Shown in pieces: positions 9,245 to 55,241 of a DNA stretch of 64,000 nucleotides (position 1 is its first letter; every line of letters starts with the position of its first letter). The translations under genes were made by a program, and so were the position numbers. The DNA is from Sabellastarte sp. h YS-2021 (taxonomy: Eukaryota > Annelida > Polychaeta > Sabellida > Sabellidae): the NCBI GenBank assembly GCA_964017235.1, contig OZ024938.1:45730332-45794331 (forward strand), given 5' to 3'. The notes beneath the pieces are model-generated. The model was not told the DNA's origin and searched no databases. It saw only the letters and a list, made by a program, of their open reading frames with translations.

Positions 9245-9793
9245 GTAAGTTACAATTTTTGTCAAGATGTATGTACATTTAATATTAAAATGCATTCTAC
9301 AGAACACTAAGTCATTCACCGTGAAATTTTGAATCCTTGCAGATCAGAAGCAATTCAGTAAAATCAAAGATGATATTCTTCAGCACATTAGGTTTTATTG
9401 AATTTATTCAAAGTTAGGCTTTGATATTAAAATACTGAGTTCAACCATTAAAAGTTGATCATTTCAAACAAAAGTAACTGCATTTTATCAGATTTTAAAG
9501 CCCAGTTGATCCACAGGAGCTTGCATATATTTTTCGCAGTGATATCACTCATCCTTTTTGTTATTGGTTTATAATTTTACTCCGCTCAGTATTTGTGGGA
9601 GGGAGGATCATGCTTTGAGAGAGAGTTGGAGTAAGTCATTTTAACAAATTATCACTTTGATTTCAGATAATGATGCTGGAAAAATGCTGTATTTCAAAGA
9701 ACCCTAAACATCACTGGCCAGGAGTGGATATCCTGTTGTACATCTACCTGAACAATATAAAAATCAATAGGAGTTAATGCTTTTTCTAATCGT

Positions 9794-12546: not shown

Positions 12547-12949
12547 TTAAGTGTCCCTGAAAGGGCGCTTCTTTGTTTTCGCCTCAGTTTCCTCGCCACC
12601 GCCGCTGCATTATGGTCTCCCTTGAATATCTCCCTTATTATTAGAAGGTTTCAAACCATATTTGGCAGTTATATACCTTAGGCTTGGGAAAATTTTTCTG
12701 CATGCTTAAATTTGACCTTTGACCTTTATGAAGGTCACATGATCAAAAACAGTTTTTTTAAGTACACCCCCCCGTCATCGCAGTTCAGGAAAAACTACTT
12801 GCTACACAGCCTTATAATTTGACACACCTGTTCATACTATCGAAAACGCGAGCTGATTAGATTTTGGGAGCAATCCCTTGAAAAATGTCTCATTTATGAG
12901 TGATTTTCTGACACCTTCCAATCTGAAAGCCTTAATTTTAGGTCAACCC

Positions 12950-14780
12950 CCCTATTATCTTCTTAAGTATTGCATTTAGAGCCATAAAATGTATTGGGAG
13001 GTAATAGGAAACCATATGTGGAGAGTCTAAATAGCTGGTCAGTTTTACCCCCCGGCCCCCCCTTATGGGTCAAACTGGGGTCATAAAATAGCTGATTTTG
13101 ATTTTTTGCCTTATATCTCCTTTATTGTTGCTTTTATAGCTTCAGAATGTATTAAGAGGTATTGGGAAAGCATATGTGGAGAGTCTAAATAGCCGCTCAG
13201 TTTTACCCCCCCGACCTCCCCTTATGGGTCAAACTGGGGTCATAAAATAGTTGATTTTGAGTTTTTGCCTTATATCTCCTTTATTGTTGCTTTTATAGCT
13301 TCAGAATGTATTAAGAGGTATTGGGAAAGCATATGTGGAGAGTCTAAATAGCCGGTCAGTTTTACCCCCCGACCCCCCCTTATGGGCCAAACTGGGGTCA
13401 TAAATAGCTGCTTTGGAGTTTTTGCCTTATATCTCCTTTATCGTTGCTTTTATAGCTTTGGAATGTATTAAGAGGTATTGGGAAAGCATATGTGTAGAAT
13501 CTAAATAGCCGGTCAGTTTTATCCCCCCCCCCCCTTATGGGTCAAACTGGGTCACAAAATAGCTGATTTTGAGTTTTTGCCTTATATCTCCTTTATTGTT
13601 GCTTTTATAGCTTCAAAATGTATTAAGAAGTATTGGGAAAGCATATGTGGAGAGTCTAAGTAGCCGGTCAGTTTTACCCCCCAACCCCCCCTTATGGGCC
13701 AAACTGGGGTCATAAATAGCTGCTTTGGAGTTTTTGCTTTATATCTCCTTTATCGTTGCTTTTATAGCTTTGGAATGTATTAAGAGGTATTGGGAAAGCA
13801 TATGTGGAGAATCTAAATAGCTGGTCAGTTTTATCCTCCGACCCCCCTTATGGGTCAAACTGGGTCATAAAATAGTTGCTTTGGAGTTTTGTCTTATATC
13901 TCCTTTATTGTTGCTTTTATACCTTCAGAATGTATTAAGAGATATTGGGAAAGCATATGTGGAGAGTCTAAATAGCCTGTCAGTTTTACCCCCCGACCCC
14001 CCTTGTGGGCCAAACTGGGGTCATAAATAGCTGCTTTGGAGTTTTTGCCTTATATCTCCTTTATCATTGCTTTTCTAGCTTCAGGATGTACTAAAAGGTA
14101 TTGGGAAAGCATACATGGAGAATCTAAGTAGCCTGTCACTTTTATCCCCTGACCCCCCCCCCCCCCCCCCCCCCCCCCCCTATGGGTCAAACTGGGGTCA
14201 TAATACAGTTGCTTTGGAGTTTTTGCATTATAACTCCGTTATTGTTTCTTTTATAGCTTCAGAATGTATTAAGAGGTATTGGGAAAGCATATGTGGAGAA
14301 TCCAAAAAACCGGTCGGTTCCCCGACCCCTCCCGAACCCCCCCTTTATGGCTGAAACTGGGCTCATAAAATAGGTCATTTGGAGTTTTTGCCTAAAATCT
14401 CTTTCATTGTTGGTTTTATAGCTTCAGAATGTATTAAGAGGTATTGGGAAAGCATATGTGGAGAGTCTAAGTGGCGGGTCAGTTTTACCGCCCGACCCCC
14501 CCCCCCCCTTATGGGTCAAACTGGGGTAAAAAAATAGCTGTTTTGGAGTTTTTACCTGATATCTCCTTCATTGTTGCTTTTATAGCTTCGGAATGTATTA
14601 AGAGGTATTAGGAAACCATATCTGGACAGTCGAAATAGCCGGTTAGTTTTACCTCCTGACCCCCATGTATGGGTCAAACTGGGGGCATAAAATAGCTTTT
14701 GCCTTTATTGTTGCTTTTATGCTTTCACAATGTATTAAAAGCTATTGCAAAACCCTGTGGACAATCTAAATAGAAATACA
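12950..14780 (+). repeat. Array A1, about 158-bp unit, about 11 copies
   Basis: Each unit has CAGAATGTATTAAGAGGTAT, GGGAAAGCATATGTGGAG, a C-rich block before TTATGGGTCAAACTGGGGTC, then CTTATATCTCCTTTATTG. CTTCAGAATG at 13140 and 13299 gives the period. The C-rich block varies from six to 28 C; the 28-base run is at 14153-14180. Last units are decayed. Confidence 0.9.
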
Positions 14781-15339
14781 TACTTGCACACATGGTTATA
14801 TATGAAGTTATCAATACTCGTTACTGAAATGCTTTGTAGCATTTACACAAAATTTACTTAAGTTATTCTTGACACTTAAACAGTGTGAAATATACACATC
14901 AGAATATTACTACAAGCATATTTAGTAGGCTTGGCTTAATGTTTTAATTAGAATAGGACATTTCCTCAAAAAAGCATAATATATGTGTACGCGTCCGCGT
15001 GACAAACTTCTTCTCCAAAACTACAAGACCCAGAGACATGCTGTTTTTTTTAAAAGATACCTTAACTATCGAGGATGATAAATCGTAAAATTCATGCAGA
15101 TCTGTCTGTTCGTCTGTTTGCCAGAGCCATTACAAGTGAGGTACCCCCACCCAAATTGTGAAAATTTCAACACTTGATCACAATTTTCTCATTCACTATT
15201 GCGGGGATTTTTCTCATATCTTGCATAGATGTAATAGGCCACTAGTAGAGTACCTTGTGTGAATATAAGACCTGGATCTGTCTTAATTTTTTTTTTATTA
15301 ATTTTTAAAATAATTTTTAATGCAATAAAATTCATGAAA
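14781..15339 (+). other. Linker between arrays A1 and A2
   Basis: Non-repetitive interior of element A, including a CTGTCTGTTCGTCTGTTTGC run near 15103. No gene is seen. Confidence 0.5.
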
Positions 15340-17125
15340 TCATGCGCTAAATCAATTATAACTTGAAAAGTATTGCATTTAGAGCATTTTGTTAAAATAT
15401 GTTATTCAGCTACTTTTTCCATAGCTACAACATGGTGAGTAACTTGGGTGTCTATCTCAATAGCTAAGTGAGTAATAGCTACTTTTGGACTTTTCAGTAA
15501 CTTCCATCATGAGTAAAATCACTTGTAACTTGAAAACTATTGCTTTTACACAATTTTGTATAAATATGTTATTCAGCTACTTTTGGGTCAGCTATAACAT
15601 AGTAAAATTTCAGACCTGTAGTTCATGGCATAGCTGAGTAATAGCTACTTTCGGGTTATCACTGTTGAGTAAATCACTTATAACTTGAAAACTATTGCAT
15701 TTACAGTAATTTGTTTGTATATGTTATTCAGCCACTTTTGGGTCAGCTATAACATAGTAAAATTTCAGACCTGTAGCTCATGGCATAGCTGAGTAATAGC
15801 TACTTTCAGGTTATCACTGTTGAGTAAATCACATATAACTTGAAAACTATTGCATTCACAGTAATTTGTTTGTATATGTTATTCAGCTACTTTTGGGCCA
15901 GCTATAACATAGTACAATTTCAGACCTGTAGCTCATGGCATAGCTGAGTAATAGCTACTTTTAGGTTATCACTGTTGAGTAAATCACTTATAATTTGAAA
16001 AGTATTGTATTTAGAGAATTTAGTTTCATATGTTATTCACCTATTTTCGGGTAAGCTATACCATGGTAAAATTCCAGACCAATGGCTCATTGCTTAGCTG
16101 AGTAATAGCTACTTTGAGGTTCTTACTCAACACTAAATCATTTATAACTTGAAAAGTATTGCAGTTAGAGCATTTTATTTAAATATGTTATTCAGCTACT
16201 TTTTCCATAGCTACAACATGGTGAGTAACTTGGGTGTCTATCTCAATAGCTAAGCGAGTAATAGCTACTTTTGGACTTTGCAGTAACTTACATCATGAGT
16301 AAAATCACTTGTAACTTGAAAACTATTGCATTTAGAGAATTTTGTGTAAATATGTTATTCAGCTACTTTTGGGTCAGCTATAACATAGTAAAATTTCAGA
16401 CCTGTAGCTCATGGCATAGCTGAGTAATAGCTACTTTTAGGTTATCACTGTTGAGTAAATCACTTATAACTTGAAAAGTATTGCATTTAGAGTATTTTGT
16501 TTCAATATGTCATTCACCTATTTTTGGGTCAGCTATAACATAGTAAAATTCCAGAGCAGTGGCTCATTGCATAGCTGAGTAATAGCTACTTTGAGGTTTT
16601 TACTCAACACTAAATCATCTATAACTTGAAAAGTATTGTATTTAGAGCATTTTGTGTAAAATATGTTATTCAGCTACTTTTGGGTAAGCTATAACATAGT
16701 AAAATTTCAGACATGTAGCTCATGGCATAGCTGAGTAATAGCTACTTTCAGGTTATCACTGTTGAGTAAATCACTTATAACTTGAAAACTATTGCATTTA
16801 CAGTAATTTGTTTGTATATGTTATTCAGCTACTTTTGGGTCAGCTATAACATAGTAAAATTTCAGACCTGTAGCTCATGGCATAGCTGAGTAATAGCTAC
16901 TTTCAGGTTATCACTGTTGAGTAAATCACATATAACTTGAAAACTATTGCATTTACAATAATTTGTTTGTATATGTTATTCAGCTACTTTTGGGTCAGCT
17001 ATAACATAGTAAAATTTTAGACCTGTAGCTCATGGCATAGCTGAGTAATAGCTACATTCAGGTTATCACTGTTGAGTAAATCACTTATAACTTCAAAAGT
17101 ATTTAGAGTATTTAGTTGTATCCAC
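15340..17125 (+). repeat. Array A2, 155-bp unit, about 11 copies
   Basis: TAGCTGAGTA recurs at 15631, 15786 and 15941, giving a 155-bp unit. Core blocks are CTATAACATAGTAAAATTTC, CAGACCTGTAGCTCATGGC, ACTTGAAAAGTATTGCATTT and TTATTCAGCTACTTTTGGG. These match, block by block, the 133-bp unit of element B (23560-25624), so the two arrays descend from one monomer. Confidence 0.9.
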
Positions 17126-17129
17126 CGGA

Positions 17130-18700
17130 CAGCAGGATATGTTCCTCATTATAAAATCTTGACTGCAAATATTTGGGTCCTCATTTTGAAAAAAAAAAAA
17201 ACATGGCCGCCACAGGTGTTTCTTTATCAGTCATGAAAAGTGGTTATAGGTCGCTTATTATCGGTCCTAGAGGTTTGGGATGGTAAACCAACATGTAGGA
17301 AATCATGGGCCGGGAATCTTTTGGTGTGGTCGGATTTGACCTTGGACCCCTCCTTCAAGGTCAGACAAGGATAGCCAAACTTAAAAGTGCTTATAACTCG
17401 CTTATTATTGGTCCTACAGGTTTGGGATGGTAAACCAACATATAGGAAATCATTGGCCTGGATTCCTTTGGTGTGGTCGGATTTGACCTTGGACCCCTCT
17501 TTCAAGGTCAAATGAGGATAGCCACACTTAAATGTGCTTATAGCTCACTTATTATTGGTTCTAGAGGGTTGGGATGATAGAACAACCTATAGGAAATCAC
17601 GGGCTGGGTATCTTTTGGTATGGTCAGATATGACCTTGGACCCCTCCTTCAAGGTCAAATGAGGATACCCAAACTTAAAAGTGCTTATAACACGCCTATT
17701 ATTGGTCCTAGAGGTTTGGGATGGTAAACCAACCTAAAGGAAATCATGGGCTGGGAATCTTTTGGTATTGTCGGATTTGAACTTGGACCCCTCCTTCAAG
17801 GTCAAACGAGGATAGCCAAACTGAAAAGTGTTTTTAAGTCGCTTATTATTGGTTCTAGAGGTTTGGGATGGTGAACCAACCTATAGGAAATCATGGGCCT
17901 GGATTCTTTTGGTGTGGTTGGATTTGACCTTGGACCTCTCTTTCAAGGTCAAACAAAAATAGCCAAACTTAAAAGTGGTTATAACTTGCTTATTATTGGT
18001 CCTAGAGATTTGGGATGGTAAACCAACCTATAGGAAATCATGGGCCTGGATTCTTTTGGTGTAGTCGGATTTGACCGTGGACCCCTCTTTCAAGGTCAAA
18101 AGAGGGTAGCCAAACTTAAAAGTGCTTATAGCTCGCTTATTATTGGTCCTAGAGATTTGGGATGGTAAACCAACCTATAGGAAATCATGGGCCTGGATTC
18201 TTTTGGTGTGGTCGGATTTGACCTTGGACCCCTCCTTCAAGGTCAAACAAAAATAGCCAAACTTAAAAGTGCTTATAACTTGCTTATTATTGGTCCTAGA
18301 GGTTTGGGATGGAAAACCAACCTCTAGGAAATCATGGGCTGAGAATCTTTTGGTGTGGTCGGATTTCACCTTGAAACCCTCCTTCAAGGTCAAACGAGGA
18401 TAGCTAAACTTAAAAGTGCTTATAGCTCGCTTATTATTAGTTCTAGAGGTTTGGAACGGAAAACCAACCTATAGGAAATAATGGGCTAGGAATCTTTTGA
18501 TGTGATCAGATTTGACCTTTGGCCCCTCTTTGAAGGTCAAATGAAGAAAGCCAAAATTAACAGTGCTTATATCTCGCTTATTTGTGTTCCTAAAGGTTTG
18601 CAATGTCACACCAACCCATAGGAATCATGGGCTAAGAATCTTTTGACATGGTCAGATTTCACCTTGAGCTCCAAGGTTAAGCATGTTTTAATGGCTTTTG
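17130..18700 (+). repeat. Array A3, 147-bp unit, about 10 copies
   Basis: GTGCTTATA recurs at 17387, 17534 and 17681. Units contain TATTATTGGTCCTAGAGG, TTTGGGATGGTAAACCAACC, GGAAATCATGGGC, GTGGTCGGATTTGACCTTGG and CTCCTTCAAGGTCAAA. Degenerate units of the same type occur at 7899-7970, 58560-58800 and 61300-61510. Frames of up to 94 codons across units reflect 147 being divisible by three, not genes. Confidence 0.9.
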
Positions 18701-18997
18701 TGAGTTTTCTGGTGGATACAATTTGCATCAGTTCTCCGATGCTATAGGTCTAGTTTCAGTGTGTTATTCACATATTTTGGGGTCAGCTATAACATAGTAA
18801 AATTAAAACTATTGCATTTGCAATATTTTCTTTAAATATGTTTTTAACTTACTTTTTACACCTTAACAGTTACCTTCTTAGTTTTCTTCCAAACACCATT
18901 TCCAGGGCACAACTTTTGTGTTTTTTTCTTCTGTCACTTCTACTCTGAAACTCAAAACACACAGTCAGCTGACACAGAGCCCGTTCACGGGCACTAA

Positions 18998-20434
18998 TTG
19001 CTTGTTTATGAAAGCAATGGAAAAAGCTGTATTTTTATGAAGTTTATTTTACTTGAACTTTCAGTATACTTTTTACAATATATATGTCACCAGAAAAAAG
19101 GGATATTGAGATGATGCAACAAAATATATATTTTCTTAAACATTGTATGTTGTAAAATAAGTACTTTCCCATGCAAGTCTATCATAATATGTGTTATGCC
19201 AGTTTCAGAATGAAACCACCACTAGAGCTTGGCTGGAATTTTTTCTTTTTTTTTTTTTTTTGATCAGTTATTTCTTTTTTTACATATAACTGACAGGCAC
19301 CATAATGCATTTAAATTCCATAGATTAACCAGTTCATCATTCCCGGTTTCATACAATTTGTTATTATTAGGCGTGTTGTTGTAACTATATAATTGCATAG
19401 CATTTGTTTCATTCATTTGTGTTAAAAAACAATGTGTGATTTCTGATTATTGAAAGTGGCTTAAGAAAATTAATATTGTCAACACACTTTGCATTTTTGT
19501 GAAACATGTATGTAAAATATGTGTGTGTTATCTTACAAGTGTATTACCATTCAAACTAAACTTCCAATTGTATTATCTTGATATTCCTGATTATGATGCA
19601 CTTATCAGTCTACTAATGTCCTTTACATTGAGCTTAATATGAATTGCTTCTACCTCTATTCCACTGTTGTGAGTTTGTCTTTCAACCATTCCAATAATGT
19701 AGTTATGTAATTTAGTTAAAATGTACAAGAGAAAGTTAATTTTAGAAATCTAGTGATTACTGCACAAGAATGGTCAAGGCTTTTATGAATTCTAGCAATC
19801 GGGAGCAGAACAATGTTTTCTCTGTGGACAAACCACCTGGTTTGTTGGTTTTCCACCCTTTCTTGACAAGATCAGCTTTGTCATTACCCTGAGTTTAAAA
19901 TTGGCGAGTTAAGTTGTGAAAGTGGAACAGTGGTATTTTGATGTAGCACAATGTTTTGACTCACACTAAATAATTACGGGATTCATTCAGAAAGTGTTTG
20001 GGAAGTTTTACTCATGTTTAGGTCAATTGTTTATGATTTTTTATTTCTCTCCTTGTTTTTGTTTGTGAATAAACATTACATTTATTTGGTCTGTTAATGC
20101 CAGAAGTCTCTACATTCTAAAAACAAAAAAATAATAATCTAATATTATATCCTTGTTTCAAGATACTAAAGTTAATACTCTGCACACCAGGGTACTGAAA
20201 TGTCAGGAAGATATATAAGTTTGTATGAACAGTATGCATGATGCCCTTCCTTTGTAAACTTGACCATAATGCAGATGGGGACTTGTAAAACACAGACATA
20301 TGGTCTTGTGGTCTATCAGATTTAAGGCTTGTAGATGTGATTTTTGCTCAAAGAAAGGAGATAAAGGCATTCGTATGTTTTTGGTCCCACTGCAGAGCGA
20401 TCATAGCTTTGGAGTCCCAAGGAAATGTAGAGGT
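18998..20434. other. Non-coding spacer
   Basis: AT-rich unique sequence with an oligo-T run near 19245-19260. No gene, RNA or repeat is recognised. Confidence 0.4.
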
Positions 20435-20578
20435 CCTCAGTGGCCTAATGGTTAGCATGTATGACATGTAACAAAAGGCTAACACCTCCAAGTCAAATCA
20501 ACTCGCATGTGACAATGCTGAAGGCCATTCTCCATATGACCCAAGCTGTTGAACAAGACGTAAAACCCTAACTTTCAC
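20435..20578 (+). mobile_element. Old tRNA-derived SINE
   Basis: It begins GTGGCCTAATGGTTAGCATG, resembling an A box, has a decayed B box (AAGTCAAATCAACTC), and ends with CAAGACGTAAAACCCTAAC, the same 3' tail type as the SINE at 11878. The body differs from that copy, so it is an older or different subfamily. Confidence 0.6.
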
Positions 20579-20935
20579 TTTGGTGCCAGAATACGTATGA
20601 AATTCATGGCAATCTTCTTAGCATGAACTTCTTCATGTCCTGCCAGAGTTTCAGGCTTATAGATAAACTTTGGAAATAATTATGGGACATAAGCATATCT
20701 TTGGAGTATTTAGGTGTGGCACCCATCGCTGGATAAATATCAATTTCGTACATATTCTCCATGTCATTTTAAATTATCTTGCAAACTTGAACAACACTTG
20801 TGGCAGAAAATAAGTCTGTTAGTTCTTTAATTGTAGTCCTTGGTGCACACATGATGGAAAAATCCCAAAACCTATCCCTTATTTCTCAGCACCAGAATCT
20901 ACATATCCTATAAAATTTCCAGGAATAACATTTTT
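20579..20935. other. Non-coding spacer
   Basis: No gene or repeat is recognised. Confidence 0.35.
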
Positions 20936-21470
20936 AGGCGGGTTTCGTGTAACCAACCTAGCAATGAGATTGATGTGTCCGACGTCCGTCTGTCTGTCCA
21001 CGCACATTTTCGTTTCCGGACTCTAAATTGAAAGTGCTTTGTCCAATCGAATTCAAACTTGACAGGGAGATAGATCACCATCATAGCTAGGTTTCAGTCG
21101 AAATTGGTGTAATTCCGTCTGTTCATTTGTCCATTTTTTGTCCATTTGTCTGTCCATCAACATTTCCGTTTCCAGACTATAACTTGAAAATGCTTTGTCC
21201 AATCGAATTCAAACTTGACAAGGAGATAGACCACCATCATAGCTAGGTTCCTTTCGAAATTGGTGTAATTCCGTCTGTTCATTTGTCCGTCAACATTTTC
21301 GCTTCCGGACTCAAACGCGAAAATGCTTTATCCAATTGAATTCAAACTTGACCGGGAGATAGATCACCATCATAGCTAAGTTGCTTTCAAAGTTGGTGTA
21401 ATTCCATCTGTTTGTCCGTTTATAGCGATACAATAGATAGATACAATTATGTAACCTAGATTACAAGTTT
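20936..21470 (+). repeat. Short array, 133-158 bp unit, 3 copies
   Basis: Three units carry GTCCGTCTGTCTGTCC-like runs, TTTCCGGACTCTAA, GCTTTGTCCAATCGAATTC, AAACTTGAC and AGATAGATCACCATCATAGC; unit starts are about 21018, 21176 and 21309. The flanks read GGCGGGTTTCGTGTAACC and ATGTAACCTAGATTAC. This resembles a small member of the same tandem-repeat element class as A-D, but clear termini were not found. Confidence 0.65.
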
Positions 21471-21547
21471 TACATTTCTTAGCACATCTAACACATTTAC
21501 CTTATCTGGGTGACCTAACATTTCTTTCCTTGTTTCTAAATTTAATT

Positions 21548-21569
21548 AAGCGTCCCGCAAGGGACGCTT
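21548..21569 (+). other. 5' terminal hairpin of element B
   Basis: A 9-bp perfect stem with a GCAA tetraloop. The corresponding places in A, C, D and G also form hairpins, though the stem sequences differ. Confidence 0.8.
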
Positions 21570-21929
21570 GTTTGTGTATGGGAGAGCTTCCGGCTCCGGC
21601 GGCTCCGGCGGCTCCGCATTTTGTTTTCCTTATAACTCTGTAACCGTTAGGCGGATTCTTTTCAAATTTGGCAGGTTTAGGCAGTAGCCTTGGGGAATTT
21701 TTTTGAATATGCTGCAGTGACATTTCAACCAATCAGAGAGGTCACATGACCAAAAAGTCTTTTTTCGATGGGGAAGCTTGTCCGGATGATAACTTGAAAG
21801 GAATTTTATCAATTCACCTGAAACTTGGCAAATACATTCATTCTATTAAAATCTGGAAATCATTAGATTTTGGCATTGATTGGTCAAGAAATGGCCGAGT
21901 AATTAATGATTAATTAATCATTACGAATT

Positions 21930-23560
21930 TTCCAAATAAGGAAAACACAAAAATGCTTATATCTCGAAAACCGTGCTAGATAGAGCGATTTCGACGAAAT
22001 TTTTGACCCGCAGGGTATCTCTGCGGCGTAGTTTTCCCAATTTTCAAAAAATTTTTGTCTCGCCCAAAATGGCGGCCATTTTGAATTTTCGAAATTTTCG
22101 CAAAAATTGCAAAACACAAAAATGCTTATATCTCAAAAACCGTGCTAGATAGAGCAATTTCGACAAAATTTTTGACCCGCTGGATATCTCTGCGGAGTAC
22201 TTTTCCCAATTTTCAAAAAATTTTTGTCTCGCCAAAAATGGCGGCCATTTTGAATTTTCGAAATTTTCGCAAAAATTGCAAAACACAAAAATGCTTATAT
22301 CTCGAAAACCGTGCTAGATAGAGCGATTTCGACGAAATTTTTGACCCTCAGGGTATCTCTGCAGAGTAGTTATCCCAATTTTGAAAAAATTTTTGTCTCG
22401 CCAAAAATGGCGGCCATTTTGAATTTTCGAATTTTTCGCAAAAATTGCAAAACAAAAATGGTTATATCTCGAAAACCCTGCTAGATAGAGCGATTTCGAC
22501 GAAATATTTGACCCACAGGGTATATCTGCAGAGTAGCCATGCCAATTTTCAAAAAAATTTTGTCTCGCCAAAAATGGCGGCCATTTTGAATTTTCGAATT
22601 TTTCGCAAAAATTGTAAAACATAAAAATGCTTATATCTCAAAAACCCTGCTAGATAGAGCGATTTCGACGAAATTTTTGACCCGCAAGGTATCTCTGCAG
22701 AGTAGCCATGCCAATTTTCAAAAAATTTCTCGCAAAAAATGGCGGCCATTTTGAATTTTCAAATTTTTCGCAAAATTGCAAAACACAAAAATGCTTATAT
22801 CTCGAAAACCGTGCTAGATCGAGCGATTTCGACGAAATTTTTGACCCACAGGGTATCTCTGCAGAGTAGCCATGCCAATTTTCAAAAAAATTTTGTCTTG
22901 CCAAAAATGGCGGCCATTTTGAATTTTCGAATTTTTCGCAAAAAATTGCAAAACATAAAAATGGTTATATCTCGAAAACCCTGCTAGATAGAGCGATTTC
23001 GACGAAATTTTTGACCCACAGGGTATATCTGCAGAGTAGCCATGCCAATTTTCAAAAAAATTTTGTCTCGCCAAAAATGGCAGCCATTTTGAATTTTCGA
23101 ATTTTTCGCAAAAATTGCAAAACATAAAAATGCTTATATCTCAAAAACCCTGCTAGATAGAGCGATTTCGACGAAATTTTTGACCCGCAGGGTATCTCTG
23201 CAGAGTAGCCATGCCAATATTCAAACAAAAAATTTCTCGCAAAAAATGGCGGCCATTTTGAATTTTCAAATTTTTCGCAAAATTGCAAAACACAAAAATG
23301 CTTATATCTCGAAAACCGTGCTAGATAGAGTGATTTCGACGAAATTTTTGACCCACAGGGTATCTCTGCAGAGTAGCCATGCCAATTTTCAAAAAAAATT
23401 TTTATCTTGCCAAAAATGGCAGCCATTTTGAATTTTCGAATTTTTGCGCAAAAATTGCAAAACACAAAAATGCTTATATTTCGAAAACCATGTTACATAG
23501 AGCGATTTCGACGAAATTTTTTATCTTCAGGGTATCTCTGCAGAGCAGCTATCCCAAAGA
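21930..23560 (+). repeat. Array B1, about 168-bp unit, about 10 copies
   Basis: GTGCTAGATA recurs at about 21972, 22142 and 22311. Blocks are CTTATATCTCGAAAACC, AGATAGAGCGATTTCGACG, GACCCGCAGGGTATCTCTGC and AAAATGGCGGCCATTTTG. The last is a perfect 17-bp palindrome (AAAATGGCGGCCATTTT). The monomer is clearly related to that of element C. Open frames of 60-137 codons on both strands arise because the period is near a multiple of three. Confidence 0.92.
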
Positions 23561-25624
23561 GCTTTCACTTGGTGAAGTTTCAGACCCATAGCTAATTGCT
23601 CACCTACTCAAAAAGAGTAAATGCGAATTACCTCTAAAAGTATTGCAGATGGCCAATTTTTCTCAAATAACTCATTCACCTACTTTTGGAAGAGCTTTCA
23701 CATGGTGAAGTTTCAGACCCATAGCCAATTATTCACCTACTCAAAATGAGTAAATGCGAATTATTTCTAAAAGTATTGCAGATAGCCAATTTTTCTCAAA
23801 TAACTCATTCACCTACTTTTGGGAGAGCTTTCACATGGTGAAGTTTCAGACCCATAGCTAATTATTTACCTACTCAAAATGAGTAAATGCTAATTATCTG
23901 TAAAAGTATTGCGGATACCCAATTTTTATCAAATAACTCATTCATCTACTTGTGGGAGAGCTTTCACATGGTGAAGTTTCAGACCCATAGCTAATTACTC
24001 ACCTACTCAAAATGAGTAAATGCGAATTATCTCTAAAAGTATTGCAGATAGCCAATTTTTCTCAAATAACTCATTCACCTACTTTGGGGAGAGCTTTCAC
24101 TTGGTGAAGTTTCAGACCCATAGCTAATTACTCACCTACTCAAAATGAGTAAATGCGAATTATCTCTAAAAGTATTGGAGATAGCCAATTTTTCTCAAAT
24201 AACTCATTCACCTACTTTTGGGAGAGCTTTCACTTGGTGAAGTATCAGACCCATAGCTAATTACTCACCTACTCAAAATGAGTAAATGCGAATTATCTCA
24301 TAAAGTATTGCAGATAGCCAATTTTTGTCAAATTAATCATTCACCTACTTTTGGGAGAGCTTTCACTTGGTGAAGTTTCAGACCCATAGCTAATTACTCA
24401 CCTACTCAAAATGAGTAAATGCGAATTATCTCTAAAAGTATTGCAGATAGCCAATTTTTCTCAAATAACTCATTCACCTACTTTTGGGAGAGCTTTCACT
24501 CTGTGAAGTTTCAGACCCATAGCTAATTACTCACCTACTCAAAATGAGTAAATGCGAATTATCTCTAAAAGTATTGCAGATAGCCAATTTTTCTCAAATA
24601 ACTCATTCACCTACTTTTGGGAGAGCTTTCACTTGGTGAAGTTTCAGACCCATAGCTAATTACTCACCTACTCAAAATGAGTAAATGCGAATTATCTCAT
24701 AAAGTATTGCAGATAGCCAATTTTTGTCAAATTAATCATTCACCTACTTTTGGGAGAGCTTTCACTTGGTGAAGTTTCAGACCCATAGCTAATTACTCAC
24801 CCACTCAAAATGAGTAAATGCGAATTATCTCTAAAAGTATTGCAGATAGCCAATTTTTCTCAAATAACTCATTCACCTACTTTTGGGAGAGCTTTCACTC
24901 TGTGAAGTTTCAGACCCATAGCTAATTACTCACCTACTCAAAATGAGTAAATGCAAATTATCTGTAAAAGTATTGCAGATAGCCAATTTTTCTCAAATTA
25001 ATCATTCACCTACTTTTGGGAGAGCTTTCACTCTGTGAAGTTTCAGACCCATAGCTAATTACTCACCTACTCAAAATGAGTAAATGCGAATTATCTCTAA
25101 AAGTATTGCAGATAGCCAATTTTTCTCAAATTAATCATTCACCTACTTTTGGGAGAGCTTTCACTTGGTGAAGTTTCAGACCCATAGCTAATTACTCGTC
25201 TACTCAAAATGAGTAAATGCGAATTATCTCTAAAAGTATTGCAGATAGCCAATTTTTCTCAAATAACTCATTCACCTACTTTTGGGAGAGCTTTCACTTG
25301 GTGAAGTTTCAGACCCATAGCTAATTACTCACCTACTCAAAATGAGTAAATGCGAATTATCTCTAAAAGTATTGCAGATAGCCAATTTTTCTCAAATAAC
25401 TCATTCACCTACTTTTGGGAGAGCTTTCACTCTGTGAAGTTTCAGACCCATAGCTATTTATTCACCTACTCAAAATGAGTAAATGCTAATTATCTGTAAA
25501 AGTATTGTGGATACCCAATTTTTATCAAATACTCATTCATCTACTTGTGGGAGAGCTTTCACATGGTGAAGTTTCAGACCCATAGCTAATTACTCACCTA
25601 CTCAAAATGAGTAAATGCGAATTA
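23561..25624 (+). repeat. Array B2, 133-bp unit, about 15 copies
   Basis: GAGCTTTCAC recurs at 23825, 23958 and 24091. Units contain GTGAAGTTTCAGACCCATAG, CTCACCTACTCAAAATGAG, AGTATTGCAGATAGCCAA and CTCATTCACCTACTTTTGGG. Units are very uniform, suggesting recent amplification. The array is cut by C1 after GCGAATTA and resumes at 28337 with TCTCTAAAAG. Confidence 0.93.
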
Positions 25625-28336
25625 TTATGTCCACCCCCCTGGGGGGTGGATATATTATTTTTGCTTTTTTCGCCGTCCGATGTCCGATGTCCGGCGTCCG
25701 GCGTCCGATGTCCGGCGTCACGCATGGTTTCCGCTCATTTAAAGGAAAAGTATTAGAGCTATTGTCACCAAATTTGGTATGCAGGCTTATTGGGTCAGTA
25801 GCTTGCTTGGGATTGCTTTTGGCTGTTGTACCTCTTTTGCTTACTGAGTAATACTTAAGTACAGCTATTTTCAGTACCCATTGGTTTCCGTGCATTTAAG
25901 CCAAAATAATTAAAGATATTTTACTACAATTTTGAATACAAGATTGTTATGTCCATAGCTCGCTTGGTATTGCATTTGGGACTGATAGCTTTGTCAGTAC
26001 ATGAGTAATAGCCATTTAGGTACTTCATTGTGTATTTTCAGTACTACTTTTGAGTAATTTGCTAATATCTCAGAAACCGTAAGAGATAGAGCGATTTCGA
26101 CAGAATTTTTGACCCACAGGGTATCTAAGGAATGCAATCTATGCAATTTTCCAAAAATTTTCCCCTCCCCAAAAATGGCGGCCATTTTGAATTTTTGAAT
26201 TTTTGCCAAAAATGGCAAAACACTAATTTGCTTCTATCTCCTTAACCGTGCGAGATAGAGCGATTTCGGCAAAATTTTCGACCCACAGGGTATCTAAAAA
26301 TTCCACTCTTGCCAAAAATTTTCCCCTCCCCAAAAATGGCGGCCATTTTGAATTTTCGAATTTTTGCCAAAAATGGCAAAACACAAATTTGCTTCTATCT
26401 CCTTAACTGTGCGAGATAGAGCGATTCCGTCGAAATTTTCGACCCACAGGGTATTTAAGGAATGCAATCTGCAATTTTCCAAAAATTTTCCCCTCCCCTA
26501 AAATGGCGGCCATTTTGAATTTTTCGAATTTTTGCCAAAAATGGCAAAACACAAATTTGCTTCTATCTCCTTAACCATGCGAGATAGAGCGATTTCGTCG
26601 AAATTTTCAACCCACAGGGTATCTAAGGAATGCAATCTTTGCAATTTTCAAAAAATTTTCCCCTCCCCAAAAATGGCGGCCATTTTGAATTTTCGAATTT
26701 TTGCCAAAAATGGCAAAACACAAATTTGCTTCTATCTCTTTAACCGTGCGAGATAGAGTGATTTCGTCGAAATTTTCGACCCACAGGGTATCTAAGGAAT
26801 GTAATATTTGCAATTTTCAAAAAATTTTCCCCTCCCCAAAAATGGCGGCCATTTTGAATTTTTGCCAAAAATGGCAAAACACTAATTTGCTTCTATCTCC
26901 TTAACCGTGCGAGATAGAGCGATTTCGGCAAAATTTTCGACGCACAGGGTACCTAAGCAAGGCAATCTTTGCAATTTTCAAAAAATTTTCCCCTCCCCAA
27001 AAATGGCGGTCATTTTGAATTTTTGAATTTTTGCCAAAAATGGCAAAACACTAATTTGCTTCTATCTCCTTAACCGTGCGAGATAGAGTGATTTCGTCGA
27101 AATTTTCGACCCACAGGGTATCTAAGGAATGCAATCTTTGCAATTTTCAAAAAATTTTCCCCTCCCCAAAAATGGCGGCCATTTTGAATTTTCGAATTTT
27201 TGCCAAAACTGGCAAAACACAAATTTGCTTCTATCTCCTTAACCGTGCGAGATAGAGCGATTTCGTCGAAATTTTCGACCCACAGGGTATCTGAGGAATG
27301 CAATCTTTGCAATTTTCAAAAAATTTTCCCCTCCCCAAAAATGGCGGCCATTTTGAATTTTCGAATTTTTGCCAAAAATGGCAAAACACTAATTTGCTTC
27401 TATCTCCTTAACCGTGCGAGATAGAGCGATTTCGTCGAAATTTTCGACCCACAGGGTATCTAAGAAATGTACTCTTTGCAATTTTCAAAAAATTTTCCCC
27501 TCCCCAAAAATGGCGGCCATTTTGAATTTTCGAAGTTTTGCCAAAAATGGCAAAACACAAATTTCCTTCTATCTCCTTAACCGTGCGAGATAGAGCGATT
27601 TCGTCAAAATTTTCGACCCACAGGTATTTGAGCATTGTATTCTTGGCAATTTAATAAAAAATTTCCCCTCCCCTAAAATGGCGGCCATTTTGAATTTTCG
27701 AATTTTTGCCAAAAATGGCAAAACACAAATTTGCTTCTATCTCCTTAACCATGCGAGATAGAGCGATTTCGTCGAAATTTTCAACCCACAGGGTATCTAA
27801 GGAATGTAATCTTTGCAATTTTCAAAAAAATTTTCCCCTCCCCAAAAATGGCAGCCATTTTGAATTTTCGAATTTTTGCCCAAAATGGAAAAACACAAAC
27901 TGGCCTTAACCGTGCAAAATAGAGTTATTTCGTTGAAATTTTCGACCCATAGGGTATCTAAGGAATGTACTCTTGGCAATTTTCAAAAAAATTTCCTTTT
28001 CCCAAAAATGGCGGCCATTTTGAATTTTCAAATTTTTGCCAAAAATAGAAAAACAGGAATTTGCTTCTATCTTCTTAACCGTGCAAGATAGAGTGATTTC
28101 ATCAAAATTTTCAACCCAACCAATGCAAAAAGGCATGAAGCTGAAATAATTTACATCTACACTAACAAATATTTAAGCATCATTGATATATTTTACAAAT
28201 GAAACAGGGTCTTGTAAGACTACTGTACAATTTGGGCAAAAGGTTCATGGGTGGACATTACACATGATAATGTGTGTTCTTCTATGCTATCCTGTTTCTA
28301 TTCGCATCTACTATCAACAGGGCGGCCTATTTCTAG
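25625..28336 (+). mobile_element. Helitron-like element C1
   Basis: It inserted into array B2. Removing it rejoins GCGAATTA and TCTCTAAAAG exactly as in neighbouring monomers, with no lost or duplicated base. The insertion point is therefore A|T, the left end TTATGTCCACC and the right end TTTCTAG (CTRR). The left end has a hairpin TCCACCCCCC/GGGGGGTGGA (25630-25650), then short GTCCGATGTCCGGC repeats, a unique 5' region to about 26080, a 168-bp array, and a unique 3' tail (28110-28336). No protein gene is present. Confidence 0.78.
26080..28110 (+). repeat. Array in C1, about 168-bp unit, about 12 copies
   Basis: GCGATTTCG recurs at about 26091, 26260, 26421 and 26589. Units have CTTCTATCTCCTTAACCG, GCGAGATAGAGCGATTTCG, CGACCCACAGGGTATC, TTTTCCCCTCCCCAAAA and the palindrome AAAATGGCGGCCATTTT. 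Frames of 60-80 codons occur on both strands and are not genes. Confidence 0.92.
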
Positions 28337-28545
28337 TCTCTAAAAGTATTGCAGATAGCCAATTTTTCTCAAATAACTCATTCACCTACTTTTGGGAGAG
28401 CTTTCACTTGGTGAAGTTTCAGACCCATAGATAATTATTCACCTACTCAAAATGAGTAAATGTGAATTATCTCTTAATAGTATTGCAGATAGCCAATTTT
28501 TCTCAAATAACTCATTCACCTACTTTTGGAAGACCTTTCACACAC
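28337..28545 (+). repeat. Array B2 resumed
   Basis: About 1.6 further 133-bp units, continuing in register from before C1, up to CTACTTTTGGAAGACCTTTC. Confidence 0.85.
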
Positions 28546-28905
28546 GAAAATGAAAAATTGTGAATATCTCGGAAAAGCTATTTCTTCTGCTTTAATGCTC
28601 GGCGGGAGATACACACCACGGCAGTGGTCTTGACAAAAATTTTTGTCTCCCCAAAAATGGTGGCCATTTTGAATTTTCAAAGTTTTTGCAAAACACAAAA
28701 ATGCTTATATCTCGAAAACTGTGCTACATGGAGCGAACTCAACAAAATTTTGGACCTGCTGGGTATCTCTGCAGAGTAGCCATGCCAATTTTCAAAATAT
28801 TTTTGTCTCGCCAAATATAGCGGACATTTTTAATTTTTTTATTTTTTGCAAAACACAAAAATGCTTATATCGTGAAAACCGTGCTAGATAGAGCAGACTG
28901 AGCTG
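28546..28905 (+). repeat. B1-type units near the right end of B
   Basis: About two decayed 168-bp units (CTTATATCTCGAAAACTGTG; CCAAAAATGGTGGCCATTTT) lie on the far side of B2. Element B is thus flanked inside by the same monomer on both sides of B2. Confidence 0.75.
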
Positions 28906-29045
28906 ACTTTGGTTGCCACAACAGTATAAGGCTAGAAACGAAGCATTTTCTTAATACTTTAGCACTCACCTTTATATCCTTTTCGGGACGCTTTGTTTTT
29001 GCTATGCAAAAACATTATCTTTTTTTTTTGGGAGCGATCCTCTAG

Positions 29046-29651
29046 TTACAGCAGTCACTAACCTTATTGTTGCCTGTGCAACCTGCCTTTTGGGGCATTT
29101 CTGACCCTCTTGTTGATTAACTTAGAGCTATTATGAAAGTTAAATAAAATTTATATCTGAGGTCATGATGATTACTTGAGTCAAGTACTTGCTCTATTTA
29201 ATATTCATATAAGTTTAAGTTTTCTTTTGAAAAAGGAAGATTGCAGTATTTGAATATTGCATACCTTATTTACAACTGTTATTATTTTAAATGACTTCAC
29301 TTTCTTATTACCAATATACAGCTATGCCGTTCTTGTGGCATACAACTTATGCTTGTATTTGGCAATGTTTTTGCATGTTTATCAGAAAATTGCCTTGAAA
29401 ATAGTGTAAGATATGTCATTTACTTATGTGCACAAAATTTGAAGGCATTTATGTTGAAGTCTTGTACTTCATTTTAAATTACAATTAACAATGGTGTGAG
29501 TTCTGAAAACAAATCGTGCATCTCTATTTGGATTACAATATATGATCATGAATGAACACCTTTGCATTGATGTATTTATCAACCATTTATCAATGTAAAA
29601 AGAAGGGTGTAGCTAGATAAAATCGGTTTAAACAGCTGTTGAGTTGGTTGA
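29046..29651. other. Non-coding spacer between B and D1
   Basis: AT-rich sequence, no gene or repeat recognised. Confidence 0.35.
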
Positions 29652-29736
29652 TTTTTACCCCACAGCCCTTAAGGGCTGTCGGGGTATTGTTTTCACCCAT
29701 GGTGTCCGGATGGGCGGGCGGCGGGAAATAGTTTGT

Positions 29737-30890
29737 CCGGGCTGTATCTCAGAAACCGTAAGGTGTAGGAAGTTCATACTTGGCAGGGACATTGGTTGGG
29801 TGGTGTAGGTGTGCAACGTCATGGTCTGACCTTGATTTCACCTTTGACCTTGCGATAGTGACCTTGAGTTTGAAAATCTTGTCCGGGCCATATCTCGCCA
29901 ATCATAAGGTGTAGGAAGTTGATACTTGGCAGGGACATTCGTTAGGGGTTGTAGGTGTGCAACGTCATGGTCTGACCTTGATTTGACCTTTGACCTTGCC
30001 GTAGTGACCTTGACCTATAAAATCTTGTCCGGGCTATATCTCGGAAACTGTAAGGTGTAGGAAGTTGATACTTGGTAGGGAAATTGGTTAGGGGGTGTAG
30101 GTGTGCAATGTCATGGTCTGACCTTGATTTGAACTTTGACCTTGCCGTAGTGACCTTGACCTATAAAACCTTGTCCGGGCTATATCTCAGCAACTGTAAG
30201 GTGTAGGAAGTTGATACTTGGTAGGGACATTGGTTAGGGGGTGCAGATGTGCAACGTCATAGTGTGACCTTGATTTGACCTTTGACCTTGCTGTAGTGAC
30301 CTTGACCTATAAAACCTTGTCCGGGCTATATCTCAGCAACTGTAAGGTGTAGGAAGTTGATACTTGGTAGGGACATTGGTTAGGGGGTGTAGATGTGCAA
30401 TGTCATAGTGTGACCTTCCTTTGACCTTTGCCGTCGTGACTTTGACCTATAAAATCTTGTTCGGGCTATATTTCGGAAACTGTAAGGTGTAGAAAGCTGA
30501 TACTTGGTGAGGACATTGGTTGGGGGTAGTAGGTGTGCAACATCATGGTGTCACCCTGATTTGACCTTTGACCTTGACCTTTGACCTTGCCGTAGTGAAC
30601 TTGCCGGGCTATATCTTGGAAACCGTAAGGTGTAGGAAGTTGATACTTGGTAGGGACATTGGTTAGGAGGTGTAGGTGTGCTACATCATAGTGTGACCTT
30701 GATTTGACCTTTGACCTTGCTGTAGTGACCTTGACCTATAAAATCTTGTCCAGGCTATATCTCAGAGACTGTAAGGTGTAGGAAGTTTATACTTGGTAGG
30801 GACATTGGTTGAGGGTTTTAGGTGTGCCATGTCATGGTGTGACACTGATTGACCTTTGACCTTGCTGTATTGACCTTTAAAATCTTGTTG
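29737..30890 (+). repeat. Array in D1, 146-bp unit, about 8 copies
   Basis: GTCCGGGC recurs at 29881, 30027 and 30173. Units contain GTAAGGTGTAGGAAGTTGAT, ACTTGGTAGGGACATTGG, GTGTGCAACGTCATGG and the nuclear-receptor-like string TTTGACCTTTGACCTTG, then TGACCTTGACCTATAAAA. Late units are decayed. Confidence 0.92.
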
Positions 30891-30950
30891 CACCTTTGGG
30901 TCTGTCTGTTGATGCAGATTAAGCACTGTTAAAGTCATATTAGAAATCAT
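30890..30950 (+). repeat. LINE 3'-tail segment inside D1
   Basis: TTGCACCTTTGGGTCTGTC, then GATGCAGATTAAGCACTG and TTAAAGTCATATTAGAA aligns with the LINE tails at 3255-3315 and 7355-7415 (TTAGAGTCTG; GAGATTAAGCGCTATAAAAG). The same segment is in D2, so it was present before the two copies separated. Confidence 0.6.
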
Positions 30951-31354
30951 TAAGAATTTCCTTTTGCAAATTCCCATTGTAACAGATGGAATTTCATCAA
31001 GTGAGCCACAGGCTTTTCTCCAACACCACACATAAGCATTCATTGAATGTATTGCCACTTCTGTATGCATGGGTAATATTCAAAACATCCAAACCATAAT
31101 TCGGCCATTTTTGGTTTACTGATAAGTGCTGTCATTTTATTATTGAATTGTTTTGTTTTAATACTTCATCTTTACATACATTTCTTTTCCTTAGATATTA
31201 TTTTCTCTACTTAAGCATTATTTGGACCTTAATATAACTGACACTGCTCTGAAAGTATCCTGAACTTTGTAATGTTATACTACTTCTATATCTCATGGTG
31301 TTGAAAAATATTTCCCCAGGCTGTGGGGTACGGCCATCTCTGATGCTATTTTTC

Positions 31355-39880: not shown

Positions 39881-40080
39881 AATTGAAGTTTTTTCATTTC
39901 AAATTTTCACTCACTCAATAACTCATTTTTTTTGTGTGTGTGTGTGTTTGGGGTTACGTGTTTGGCATGGGGTGGTGTAATGCTTCTAGTTTTGGGATTT
40001 TTTAAGCATTCAGCTGAATAATTGTTTTTGGAAGATTTGGGTGGTCCTGAGAAGGACCTGTAAATTTTTCATCAGTGGTC

Positions 40081-41370: not shown

Positions 41371-43072
41371 TTTTTACCCCACAGCCCTTAAGGGCTGTCG
41401 GGGTATTGTTTTCACCCATGGTGTCCGGATGGGCGGGCGGGCGGCGGGAAATAGTTTGTCCGGGCTGTATCTCAGAAACCGTAAGGTGTAGGAAGTTCAT
41501 ACTTGGCAGGGACATTGGTTAGGGGGTGTAGGTGTTCAACGTCATGGTCTGACCTTGATTTGACCTTGCCGTAGTGACCTTGAGTTTGAAAATCTTGTCC
41601 GGGCTATATCTCGGCAACCATAAGGTGTAGGACGTTGATACTTGGCAGGGACATTAGTTAGGGGTTGTAGGTGTGCAACGTCATGGTCTGACCTTGATTT
41701 GACCTTTGACCTTGCCGTAGTGACCTTGACCTATAAAATCTTGTCCGGGATATATCTCGGAAATTGTAAGGTGTAGGAAGTTGATACTTGGTAGGAACAT
41801 TGGTTAGGAGTTGTAGGTGTGCAACATCATGGGCTGACCTTGATTTGACCTTTGACCTTGCCGTAGTGACCTTGACCTATAAAACCTTGTCTGGGCTATA
41901 TCTCAGCAACTGTAAGGTGTAGGACGTTGATAATTGGTAGGGACATTGGTTAGGAGGTGTAGGTGTGCCATGTCATGGTCTGACCTTGATTTGACCTTTG
42001 ACCTTGCTGTAGTGACCTTGACCTATAAAATCTTGTCCGGGCTATATCTCGGAAACCATAAGGTGTAGGAAGTTGATACTTGGTAGGGACATTGGTTAGG
42101 GGATGTAGATGTGCAACGTCATGGTGTAACCTTGATTTGACCTTTGACCTTGCTGTAGCGAACTTGACCTATAAAATCTTGTCCAGGTTATATCTCAGCA
42201 ACTGTAAGGTGTAGGAAGTTGATAATTGGTAGGGATATTGGTTAGAGGGTGTAGGTGTGCAACGTCATGGTCTGACCTTGATTTGACCTTTGACCTTGCT
42301 GTAGTGACTTTGACCTATAAAATCTTGTCCGGGCTATATCTCGGAAACCGTAAGGTGTAGGAAGTTGATACTTGGTAGGGACATTGGTTAGGGGTGTAGA
42401 TGTGCAACGTCATGGTGTAACCTTGATTTGACCTTTGACCTTGCTGTAGCGACCTTGACCTATAAAATCTTGTCCAGGTTATATCTCAGAGACTGTGTAG
42501 GAAGTTTATACTTGGTAGGGACATTGGTTGAGGGTTTTAGGTGTGCCATGTCATGGTGTAACACTGATTGACCTTTGACCTTGCTGTATTGACCTTTAAA
42601 ATCTTGTTGCACCTGTGGGTCTGTCTGTTGATGCAGATTAGGCACTGTTAAAGTCATATTAGAATTCATTAAGAATTTCCTTTTGCAAGTTCCCATTGTA
42701 ACAGATGGAATTTCATCAAGTGAGCCACAGGCTTTTCTCCAACACCCCACATAAGCATTCATTGAATGTATTGCCACTTCTGTATGCATGGGTAATATTC
42801 AAAACATCCAAACCATAATTCGGCCATTTTTGGTTTACTGATAAATGCTGTCATTTTATTATTGAATTGTCTTGTTTTAATACTTCATCTTTATATACAT
42901 TTCTTTTCCTTAGATATTATTTTCTCTACTTAAGCATTATTTGGACCTTAATATGATTACACTGCTCTGAAAGTATCTTGAACTTTGTACTGTTACATTA
43001 CTTCTATATCTCATGGTGTTGAAAAATATTTCCCCAGGCTGTGGGGTACGGGCATCTCTGATGCTATTTTTC
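41371..43072 (+). mobile_element. Tandem-repeat element D, copy 2 (inside the DIRS fossil)
   Basis: Same ends and order as D1: TTTTTACCCC after a host A, the ACAGCCC-TTAA-GGGCTGT hairpin, about eight 146-bp units (41457-42600), the LINE-tail segment (42605-42668), and the 3' region to GATGCTATTTTTC. It is one base different in length from D1 (1,702 against 1,703 bp), and the unique 3' regions differ at only a small number of positions. It is therefore younger than the DIRS copy it interrupts. Confidence 0.7.
41457..42600 (+). repeat. Array in D2, 146-bp unit, about 8 copies
   Basis: Same monomer as in D1 (GTAAGGTGTAGGAAGTTGAT; TTTGACCTTTGACCTTG; GACCTTGACCTATAAAA). Minor differences between units suggest partly independent drift of the two arrays. 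Confidence 0.92.
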
Positions 43073-44620: not shown

Positions 44621-44719
44621 GGTAAATGAAGTGGGATCTCTGTTGAGAGCTGCACTAGGTCCCAAAACCAGGGCATCCCTGGCCAGCCTGGTGTTATTAC
44701 AATGATCAGACAACTGGAT

Positions 44720-55000: not shown

Positions 55001-55241
55001 ATTTCGTCAAAATTTTCAACCCAACCAATGCAAAAAGGCACGAAGCTGAAATAATTTACATCTACACTAACAAATATTTAAGCATCATTGATATATTTTA
55101 CAAATGAAACAGGGTCTTGTAAGACTACTGTACAATTTGGGCAAAAGGTTCATGGGTGGACATTACACATGATAATGTGTGTTCTTCTATGCTATCCTGT
55201 TTCTATTCGCATCTACTATCAACAGGGCGGCCTATTTCTAG
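52002..55241 (+). mobile_element. Helitron-like element C2
   Basis: Same ends as C1 (TTATGTCCACC ... TTTCTAG). It lies between host CATCTTAA and TTTTTGACTGAG, which together restore array E's text, again at A|T. The 5' unique region and the 3' tail (55015-55241) are nearly identical to C1. C2 is 3,240 bp, 528 bp longer than C1, which equals about three monomers. No protein gene is present. Confidence 0.78.
52455..55015 (+). repeat. Array in C2, about 168-bp unit, about 15 copies
   Basis: Same monomer as C1 (GCGAGATAGAGCGATTTCG; TTTTCCCCTCCCCAAAA; palindrome AAAATGGCGGCCATTTT). A longer duplicated block is visible: several hundred bases around 52960-53230 recur almost exactly at about 53465-53740, showing multi-unit amplification within the array. 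Confidence 0.92.

Follow-up and report, generated by a model that had tools for sequence, protein, structure and literature searches.

Introduction

Published accounts of HINE structure and of the tandem repeats that HINEs contain cover Drosophila, mite and mosquito (PMC4067079). In oyster genomes HINEs are believed to spread satellite DNA (PMC7492417), oyster satellitomes are described as rich in such repeats (PMC11136912), and a 2025 review names the central arrays of Helitrons and Helentrons as a common source of satellites (PMC12628747); as far as its excerpted text goes, the oyster study could relate none of its 10 autonomous elements to HINEs (PMC7492417). Here we describe five families of array-bearing elements, A to E, in 64,000 nucleotides of the annelid Sabellastarte sp. 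h YS-2021 (assembly GCA_964017235.1, contig OZ024938.1, positions 45,730,332 to 45,794,331 of the forward strand), a stretch referred to below as the window, 33% of which (21.3 kb) is occupied by the catalogued elements (Table 1). Elements A, B, C, D and E are very probably HINEs of the Helitron2/Helentron kind, moved by rolling circle with the Rep/helicase, and perhaps endonuclease, of a Helentron of the same genome. One protein-coding Helentron has its ends, microsatellite and array in common with element D and carries satellite arrays itself.

Results

Ends, copies and anatomy of elements B and C

The genome searched was the 1.786-Gb assembly of 647 contigs, in which the window lies on contig C19; all genome-wide pattern counts are lower bounds, and the reversed pattern served as the control. 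With up to three mismatches allowed, the 5' ends of A, B (29 bases) and C (31 bases) have at least 3855, 8950 and 6784 copies, respectively. The 3' end of B (44 bases, up to three mismatches) is present in at least 5105 copies and that of C (22 bases, up to two mismatches) in at least 9014, and none of these five patterns had a match when reversed. With 6 of 29 bases different between the A and B 5' patterns, one copy may match both, and the two counts are not to be summed. Copies of the B and C ends sit in unrelated flanks, and both 3' ends are exact: divergence starts directly after CTAG in 10 of 10 fetched copies of B and in 10 of 10 of C, with TT as the next two bases in all 20.

The two ends of B and of C also occur as pairs. 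For each family, 100 listed exact 5' places, all on contig C1, were taken and a 3' end was sought on the same strand, no more than 15 kb downstream; of the 100 listed 3' places, 76 served for C and 70 for B, the others lying beyond the 5' range or off the contig. A matching 3' end was found at 65 of the 100 places for C (opposite strand, 0; wrong side, 4) and at 47 of the 100 for B (opposite strand, 0; wrong side, 9), the median pair lengths being 4.2 kb and 4.6 kb. Total length is what differs between paired copies within each of the two families. Mixed pairs of ends remained near background: A5-B3 gave 2 of 97 on the right side and 1 on the wrong one, B5-A3 gave 1 and 1 of 16, C5-A3 gave 0 and 1 of 27, and C5-B3 gave 1 and 4 of 97, with 1 on the opposite strand.

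Inside these ends lies a constant anatomy. Subterminal inverted repeats (subTIRs) of 10 bp begin at base 3 and were equalled, in 1000 shuffles of the 3' part, once for B, never for the C1 copy of element C and once for the C2 copy. In B the repeat is AAGCGTCCCG, whose inverted copy lies 52 bases from the end and is followed by the palindrome GTTTTTGC-TAT-GCAAAAAC; in C it is ATGTCCACCC, with the inverted copy 78 bases from the 3' end and then the palindrome ACACAT-GATA-ATGTGT. The 3' palindromes of C (ACACAT/ATGTGT) and A (GCCCG/CGGGC) were obtained by folding and that of B was read from the sequence. The 5' hairpins of A, B and C have energies of -9.8, -17.8 and -22.9 kcal/mol, computed with RNA parameters. 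Microsatellites are present in B (CGGCTCCGG), C (GTCCGAT) and D (GTCCGACGTCCGTC); none is clear in A. The left modules of C1 and C2 are 99.3% identical.

The arrays are traits of families in the part covered, the first 1.5 kb from the 5' end of 30 C and 30 B loci. Units of the 169-bp type were present there in all 30 C loci and in 28 B loci, and 133-bp units also in 20 of the 30 B loci; in the 10 of 30 B loci for which both are called by the repeat finder, the 133-bp array comes after the 169-bp one. Two B loci are odd, one being arrayless in this part and the other having 133-bp units only. Array 1 of B is related to the C array (z 47; each z was derived from 60 shuffles).

Insertion sites, nesting and head-to-tail copies

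The 5' flanks define the target. Of the exact places, the first 30 were taken for C and the first 30 for B, and four C tandem joints and two B places with repeated flanks were excluded. In the 26 C flanks left, T is at -3 in 23 and A at -1 in 21; in the 28 B flanks, T is at -3 in 27 and A at -1 in 25. In 20 fetched flanks of the A 5' end, T is at -3 in 20, A at -2 in 18 and A at -1 in 20. The consensus is T-W-A|TT. As element and target both start with T, A|TT is indistinguishable from AT|T, and the TNAT|T rule given for Fusarium Helitron2 describes the same site (PMC5148889).

Empty sites were found for C1, C2 and B, with no target duplication in any of the three. The joined flanks of C1 are identical over 119-120 bp to three B array units, so that no bases were gained or lost; either the insertion is recent or the surrounding array has been homogenised. 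For B, three related Helentron copies read an uninterrupted AATTTAATGAGAGCAG, and the window reads AATTTAA, then B, then TTACAGCAG. C1 thus lies within B and B within D, a three-level nest from which the order of the insertions relative to one another can be read and which supplies exact empty sites. C2 splits a diverged array with units of ~163 bp (49758-56567), the pieces of which are ~64-74% alike; the ends of this array itself were not found.

Copies of C also occur head to tail. Exact CTAG-TTATG joints, in which one C element follows another with zero gap, number 18 at 13 loci (up to 2 mismatches in 25 bases; reversed control, 0). Four of them lie at 17.09 Mb of contig C1 and three, evenly spaced by 2988 bp, at 47.70 Mb of contig C5. 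In the contig C1 concatemer four consecutive units are 99.9-100% identical over 1531 bp, and the first unit of the row is 92% identical. Such copies fit rolling-circle transposition, and in Helitrons head-to-tail joints, recovered by data mining, were read as supporting this mode of transposition (PMC5876387).

A protein-coding Helentron related to element D

Helitron_like_N has 24 genome matches among 36 scored candidates, none of them on the contig of the window. One locus, at C3:168666688-168678957 (L081/L007/L082), is a Helentron of ~12.3 kb end to end with an open frame of 2245 aa. Its Rep (PF14214, 91.3 bits) and PIF1 (100.1 bits) matches both pass the cut-off, a weak match to Peptidase_C48 (Ulp1) lies slightly above it, and a match to Exo_endo_phos, slightly below its own cut-off, marks a probable endonuclease. 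The helicase half has 19 matches in PDB, all of them helicases (Pif1-type, the weakest being Helraiser), with no endonuclease among them; a phmmer search of PDB with the Rep half gave no match.

The Helentron starts with TTTTTAGGYGGGTTGCG, followed by a complementary inverted repeat and the GTCCGACGTCCGTC microsatellite, and ends in CTCTTG. Its 12-bp subTIR, tested with an internal copy of the 5' end, was equalled in 0 of 1000 shuffles. Among the three Helentron copies compared, similarity ends exactly after CTCTTG and the flanks differ; the 3' end was checked in three of four close copies, and its 36 bases have at least 2840 genome copies with up to three mismatches. The order of parts is outer 5' end, 187-bp array, second copy of the 5' end, 164-bp array and coding part. 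An array flanks the internal 5' copy on both sides in all three copies. The stretches covered of the two other copies start inside the first array in one and in its last unit in the other, and both have the array, the internal 5' copy and the 164-bp array at 98-99% identity. The internal 5' copy could stem from an old nested insertion.

Element D resembles this Helentron at 77% identity over the 5' module and array and at 83-91% over the 3' module; it can be tied to an autonomous Helentron. The Helentron itself lies within an array of the A array 1 type (L081:1-90, ~79% by BLAST on the left; L082:2860-2960, by eye on the right), and the adjacent units resemble its empty site.

A partner for A, B and C was sought by BLAST and by short patterns of their ends in 20 of the 24 Rep loci, ~3.5 kb each, and none of these ends was found there. 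A DNA query of 129 bases, made with a tool that passes over common words, had no match. Short-pattern matches in L002, L008, L012 and L019 lie in or beside the Rep coding stretch and were judged to be chance. At L017, C-like left-module repeats and two 169-bp units stand directly 5' of a broken Rep, where a C 5' end was not found; the longer relatives of this Rep at L013 and L014 have 2.66 kb in common, with no recognisable end.

Ends and composition of element A

The first-pass annotation ended A at 18997 with CTAA and gave a CTRR ending to elements A, B and C alike. The A 3' end had to be moved: conservation passes 18997 through TTGCTTG in all 20 fetched copies (exactly in 16 and with one mismatch in 4; 12 chosen as exact CTAA and 8 as CTGA), and TT follows directly after CTTG in 19 of the 20 before divergence starts. 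The end is therefore CTTG at 19004, outside the CTRR rule, with a hairpin ~12 nt inside it. All 100 listed A 3' places read CTGA, so that the CTAA of the window is a coincidence. A second form of A-type 3' end, GTGCCCGTTCACGGGCACTCTCCTCTTG|TT, occurs at L032, L038 and L052, its final CTCTTG being that of the Helentron and of D. The three A arrays had been described as unrelated-looking, which holds for arrays 1 and 2 (z -0.6) and 2 and 3 (z 0.3) and not for 1 and 3 (z 8.9). Diverged (~70%) relatives of array 3 also lie at 58596-58780 and 61093-61528, outside any recognised element.

Element A could be composite; alternatively, it could be a large element of which strict patterns catch too few copies. 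One form of composite would be two adjacent or nested elements, the A 5' end with array 1 and the A 3' end with arrays 2 and 3, a reading about as likely as not. Among the 37 A 3' ends covered, two pair within 12 kb with an A 5' end on the right side and two on the wrong side; the same script gave 46 and 8 of 70 for B, and an alternative list of A 3' ends gave 1 right and 1 wrong of 24. Elsewhere in the genome, the A 5' end with array 1 (L048) occurs apart from array 2, array 3 and the A 3' tail, array 2 lying farther upstream of array 3 and the A right module in one locus (L038). On the other hand, a search of 14698-15510 recognised no second 5' or 3' end, the 5' hairpin matches the reverse complement of the 3' hairpin at 14 of 17 bases, and the right-side pairs, at 8.5 and 10.9 kb, would fit a large element with three arrays.

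Table 1. Features of the window, in window coordinates.
Feature	Position	Strand	Evidence
A left module: 5' end TTAAG and hairpin AAGTGTCCC..GGGCGCTT	12547..12987	+	at least 3855 copies; hairpin -9.8 kcal/mol
A array 1, unit ~155 bp	12988..14697	+	in L048, same unit type after a further A-type left module
A array 2, unit 155 bp	15510..17103	+	relationship to B array 2 (z 9.7)
A array 3, unit 147 bp	17236..18666	+	L032, L038 and L052 (3 of 3 further loci) have such units 5' of an A-type 3' module
A right module: 3' hairpin GCCCGTTCACGGGC, true 3' end ...CTTG at 19004	18667..19004	+	at least 11911 copies with up to 3 mismatches
D left part, with TTTTTAGGCGGG 5' end, GTCC microsatellite, array (20984-21412) and beginning of the 3' module	20931..21545	+	77% to L081:688-1204, 91% to L082:2702-2791 (Helentron)
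B left module: TTAAG, hairpin AAGCGTCCC/GGGACGCTT, CGGCTCCGG microsatellite	21546..21941	+	at least 8950 copies, control 0; hairpin -17.8 kcal/mol
B array 1, unit 169 bp	21942..23557	+	
B array 2 as far as C1, unit 133 bp	23558..25624	+	
C1, complete C element inside B array 2, TTATG...CTAG	25625..28336	+	joined flanks the same as 3 other B array 2 units over 119-120 bp
B array 2, rest beyond C1	28337..28542	+	
Units of 169-bp type between B array 2 and B 3' module	28635..28895	+	
B right module: 3' subTIR CGGGACGCTT, palindrome GTTTTTGC-TAT-GCAAAAAC, end CTAG	28896..29045	+	at least 5105 copies, control 0; 10 of 10 diverge after CTAG
D right part: remainder of 3' module, end CTCTTG	29046..29112	+	83% to L082:2795-2860
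E1, HINE-like: TTTTTACCCCACAGCC hairpin, 146-bp array; 3' end uncertain	29652..31354	+	92.6% to E2, sharp homology breaks
E2, second E copy	41371..43072	+	92.6% to E1
C2, second C element, inside diverged array with ~163-bp units	52002..55241	+	joined flanks up to 82% over 105 positions, gapless joint

Element E and other features of the window

Element E starts with a hairpin and has a GTCCGG-type sequence, 146-bp units and a 12-bp subTIR, the last seen by eye only. An Rfam scan of the window gave a single match, a Histone3 stem-loop at 40017-40063, just 5' of E2. Several open frames were assigned by eye: those at 1901-2815 and 5973-7244 resemble pieces of a non-LTR reverse transcriptase, and those at 44513-45582 and 47801-48499 pieces of a DIRS/Ngaro-type retroelement. 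A 535-aa frame at 9761-11368 resembles a PX and SH3 adaptor protein, and a 368-aa frame at 56692-57798 a DXD-type glycosyltransferase.

Discussion

The assignment to the HINE kind has to be weighed against three other classes. Canonical Helitrons (Helitron1), with 5' TC, 3' CTRR, a hairpin ~11 nt inside the end, an A|T target and a Rep/helicase without endonuclease, would account for insertion compatible with A|T and without duplication, for CTAG at the ends of B and C, and for the place of the A hairpin. However, no element has the 5' TC, the ends being TTAAG, TTATG and TTTTTAGG, and A ends in CTTG; on these two points we reject this assignment, which is very unlikely also in view of the 10-bp subTIRs of B and C, their 3' palindromes tens of bases inside the end, and the Helentron-like character of the matching protein-coding element. 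Cut-and-paste transposons of the MITE (miniature inverted-repeat transposable element) or foldback type would likewise have hairpin ends and inverted repeats, and Pearl was first described as a MITE according to the oyster study (PMC7492417), but we reject them for the lack of target site duplication at the empty sites, and with asymmetric inverted repeats and zero-gap head-to-tail joints such an origin is highly improbable. That the elements are plain satellite arrays, their common edges made by array expansion with no transposition, is scarcely credible: tandem repeat is most of each element and related arrays recur across families, but thousands of copies with the same unique, paired ends in unrelated flanks, together with the clean empty sites, refute it for B and C.

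For HINEs served by a Helentron, transposition could proceed as follows. Rep would nick at the 5' TT and the helicase would strip off one strand, until the 3' palindrome and CTWG ended the reaction; a circle with a CTWG-TT joint would then insert at T-W-A|TT. Where termination was missed, copies would be left head to tail in a concatemer; array length could change by recombination or by repeated rounds of rolling inside an array. The arrays themselves would be inherited with the left half of the element rather than newly captured.

Several observations weigh against this assignment. The subTIR of D is decayed to 5 bp, a length matched by 838 of 1000 shuffles, and A is without an exact subTIR (longest 5 bp, matched by 917 of 1000); the two ends of A pair no better than background. 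The Exo_endo_phos match of the Helentron reaches 24.1 bits, below the Pfam cut-off of 24.5. The outer 5' end of the Helentron is visible in one of three copies and differs from the internal copy tested at 1 of 12 subTIR bases. No intact Rep element with A, B or C ends was found, the partner being one for D only. Unequal crossing-over could have multiplied an initial tandem pair into the longer concatemers. Finally, mobility of the elements is read from sequence, and no movement was observed.

Our data modify the first-pass annotation, which had overlooked D around B (20931-29112) and the fifth family E. The ends that it quoted for A, B and C are literally present in the window, as are the arrays, and B and C stand as elements with these ends by copy number, pairing and exactness; A does not, on account of its 3' end and its pairing. 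Its view of them as non-autonomous Helitron-like elements with an A|T-type target, satellite arrays as main content and no 5' TC agrees with the present results, and the target duplications that it named as a sign to the contrary are absent from the three empty sites of C1, C2 and B. The statement that no Rep/helicase is present is right for the window, whose contig carries not one of the 24 Helitron_like_N matches, and wrong for the genome, which has the Helentron. A Rep/helicase element with the same ends, which was anticipated there, exists for D, and for the others in the sense of the same kind of ends; for A, B and C none was found. The expectation of many copies with the same ends and different arrays fails in the first 1.5 kb, where the arrays go with the family; what varies is total length. 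Nor do the elements form an undescribed branch, since subTIRs, 5' hairpin, microsatellite, arrays, 3' palindrome and a missing 5' TC have already been published for HINEs and Helentrons (Helitron2) (PMC4067079, PMC7492417, PMC5148889).

The elements belong to a known kind, and the array-bearing Helentron is the part worth following. We tentatively propose, as something short of an even bet, that satellite arrays are a built-in part of the Helentron left half rather than chance cargo; D-like elements may arise by loss of the coding part with ends and arrays kept, and Helentrons might then both make satellites, by re-initiation at repeated 5' ends, and disperse them. A satellite-bearing HINE and a coding Helentron with common ends, microsatellite and array make it testable whether satellites arise inside working Helentrons, and also whether repeated 5' ends drive array growth. 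An array-carrying Helentron helps explain how satellite DNA is dispersed through a genome. A search of open-licence literature for autonomous Helentrons with tandem repeats turned up only PMC7492417 and PMC4067079, and one for autonomous Helitrons and satellites had no array-bearing protein-coding Helentron in the titles or abstract openings of the matches listed.

Compared with known systems as the excerpted texts describe them, the closest likeness is to Cg_HINE of the Pacific oyster (PMC7492417), which has a left module with subTIR, complementary inverted repeat and microsatellite (GTCY, GTCC or GTCK in several), tandem units of 140-180 bp in arrays of a single type or, as an exception, of two types one after the other, a right module with subTIR and palindrome, and no target duplication. 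Unlike Cg_HINE, D is tied to a protein-coding Helentron, and A may carry three arrays. DINE-1/HINE elements and Helentrons (PMC4067079) likewise have a 5' subTIR a few bases from the end, an inverted repeat, a microsatellite, tandem repeats in some copies, a 3' palindrome, a T-rich target and a Rep/helicase/endonuclease partner; the strong A at -1 (T-W-A|TT) and the ends TT...CTWG set our elements apart from DINE-1/HINE. The proto-Helentron of the same paper, with 5' TT, 3' CTAG, an A|T target and a Rep/helicase without endonuclease, is near as well: the ends and target of B and C match it, and no coding partner with these ends was found in our searches. The FoHeli elements of Fusarium (Helitron2; PMC5148889) resemble ours in their asymmetric terminal inverted repeats, in hairpins at both ends of some elements, in a target between TNAT and T and in the joined-end intermediates suggested for them; they differ in their fungal host, and the excerpted text makes no mention of satellite arrays. 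The tandem truncated Helitrons of plant centromeres (Xiong et al. 2016, as cited in PMC12628747) also have several 5' ends per single 3' end and form head-to-tail arrays, whereas the repeated 5' end described here lies inside a protein-coding Helentron.

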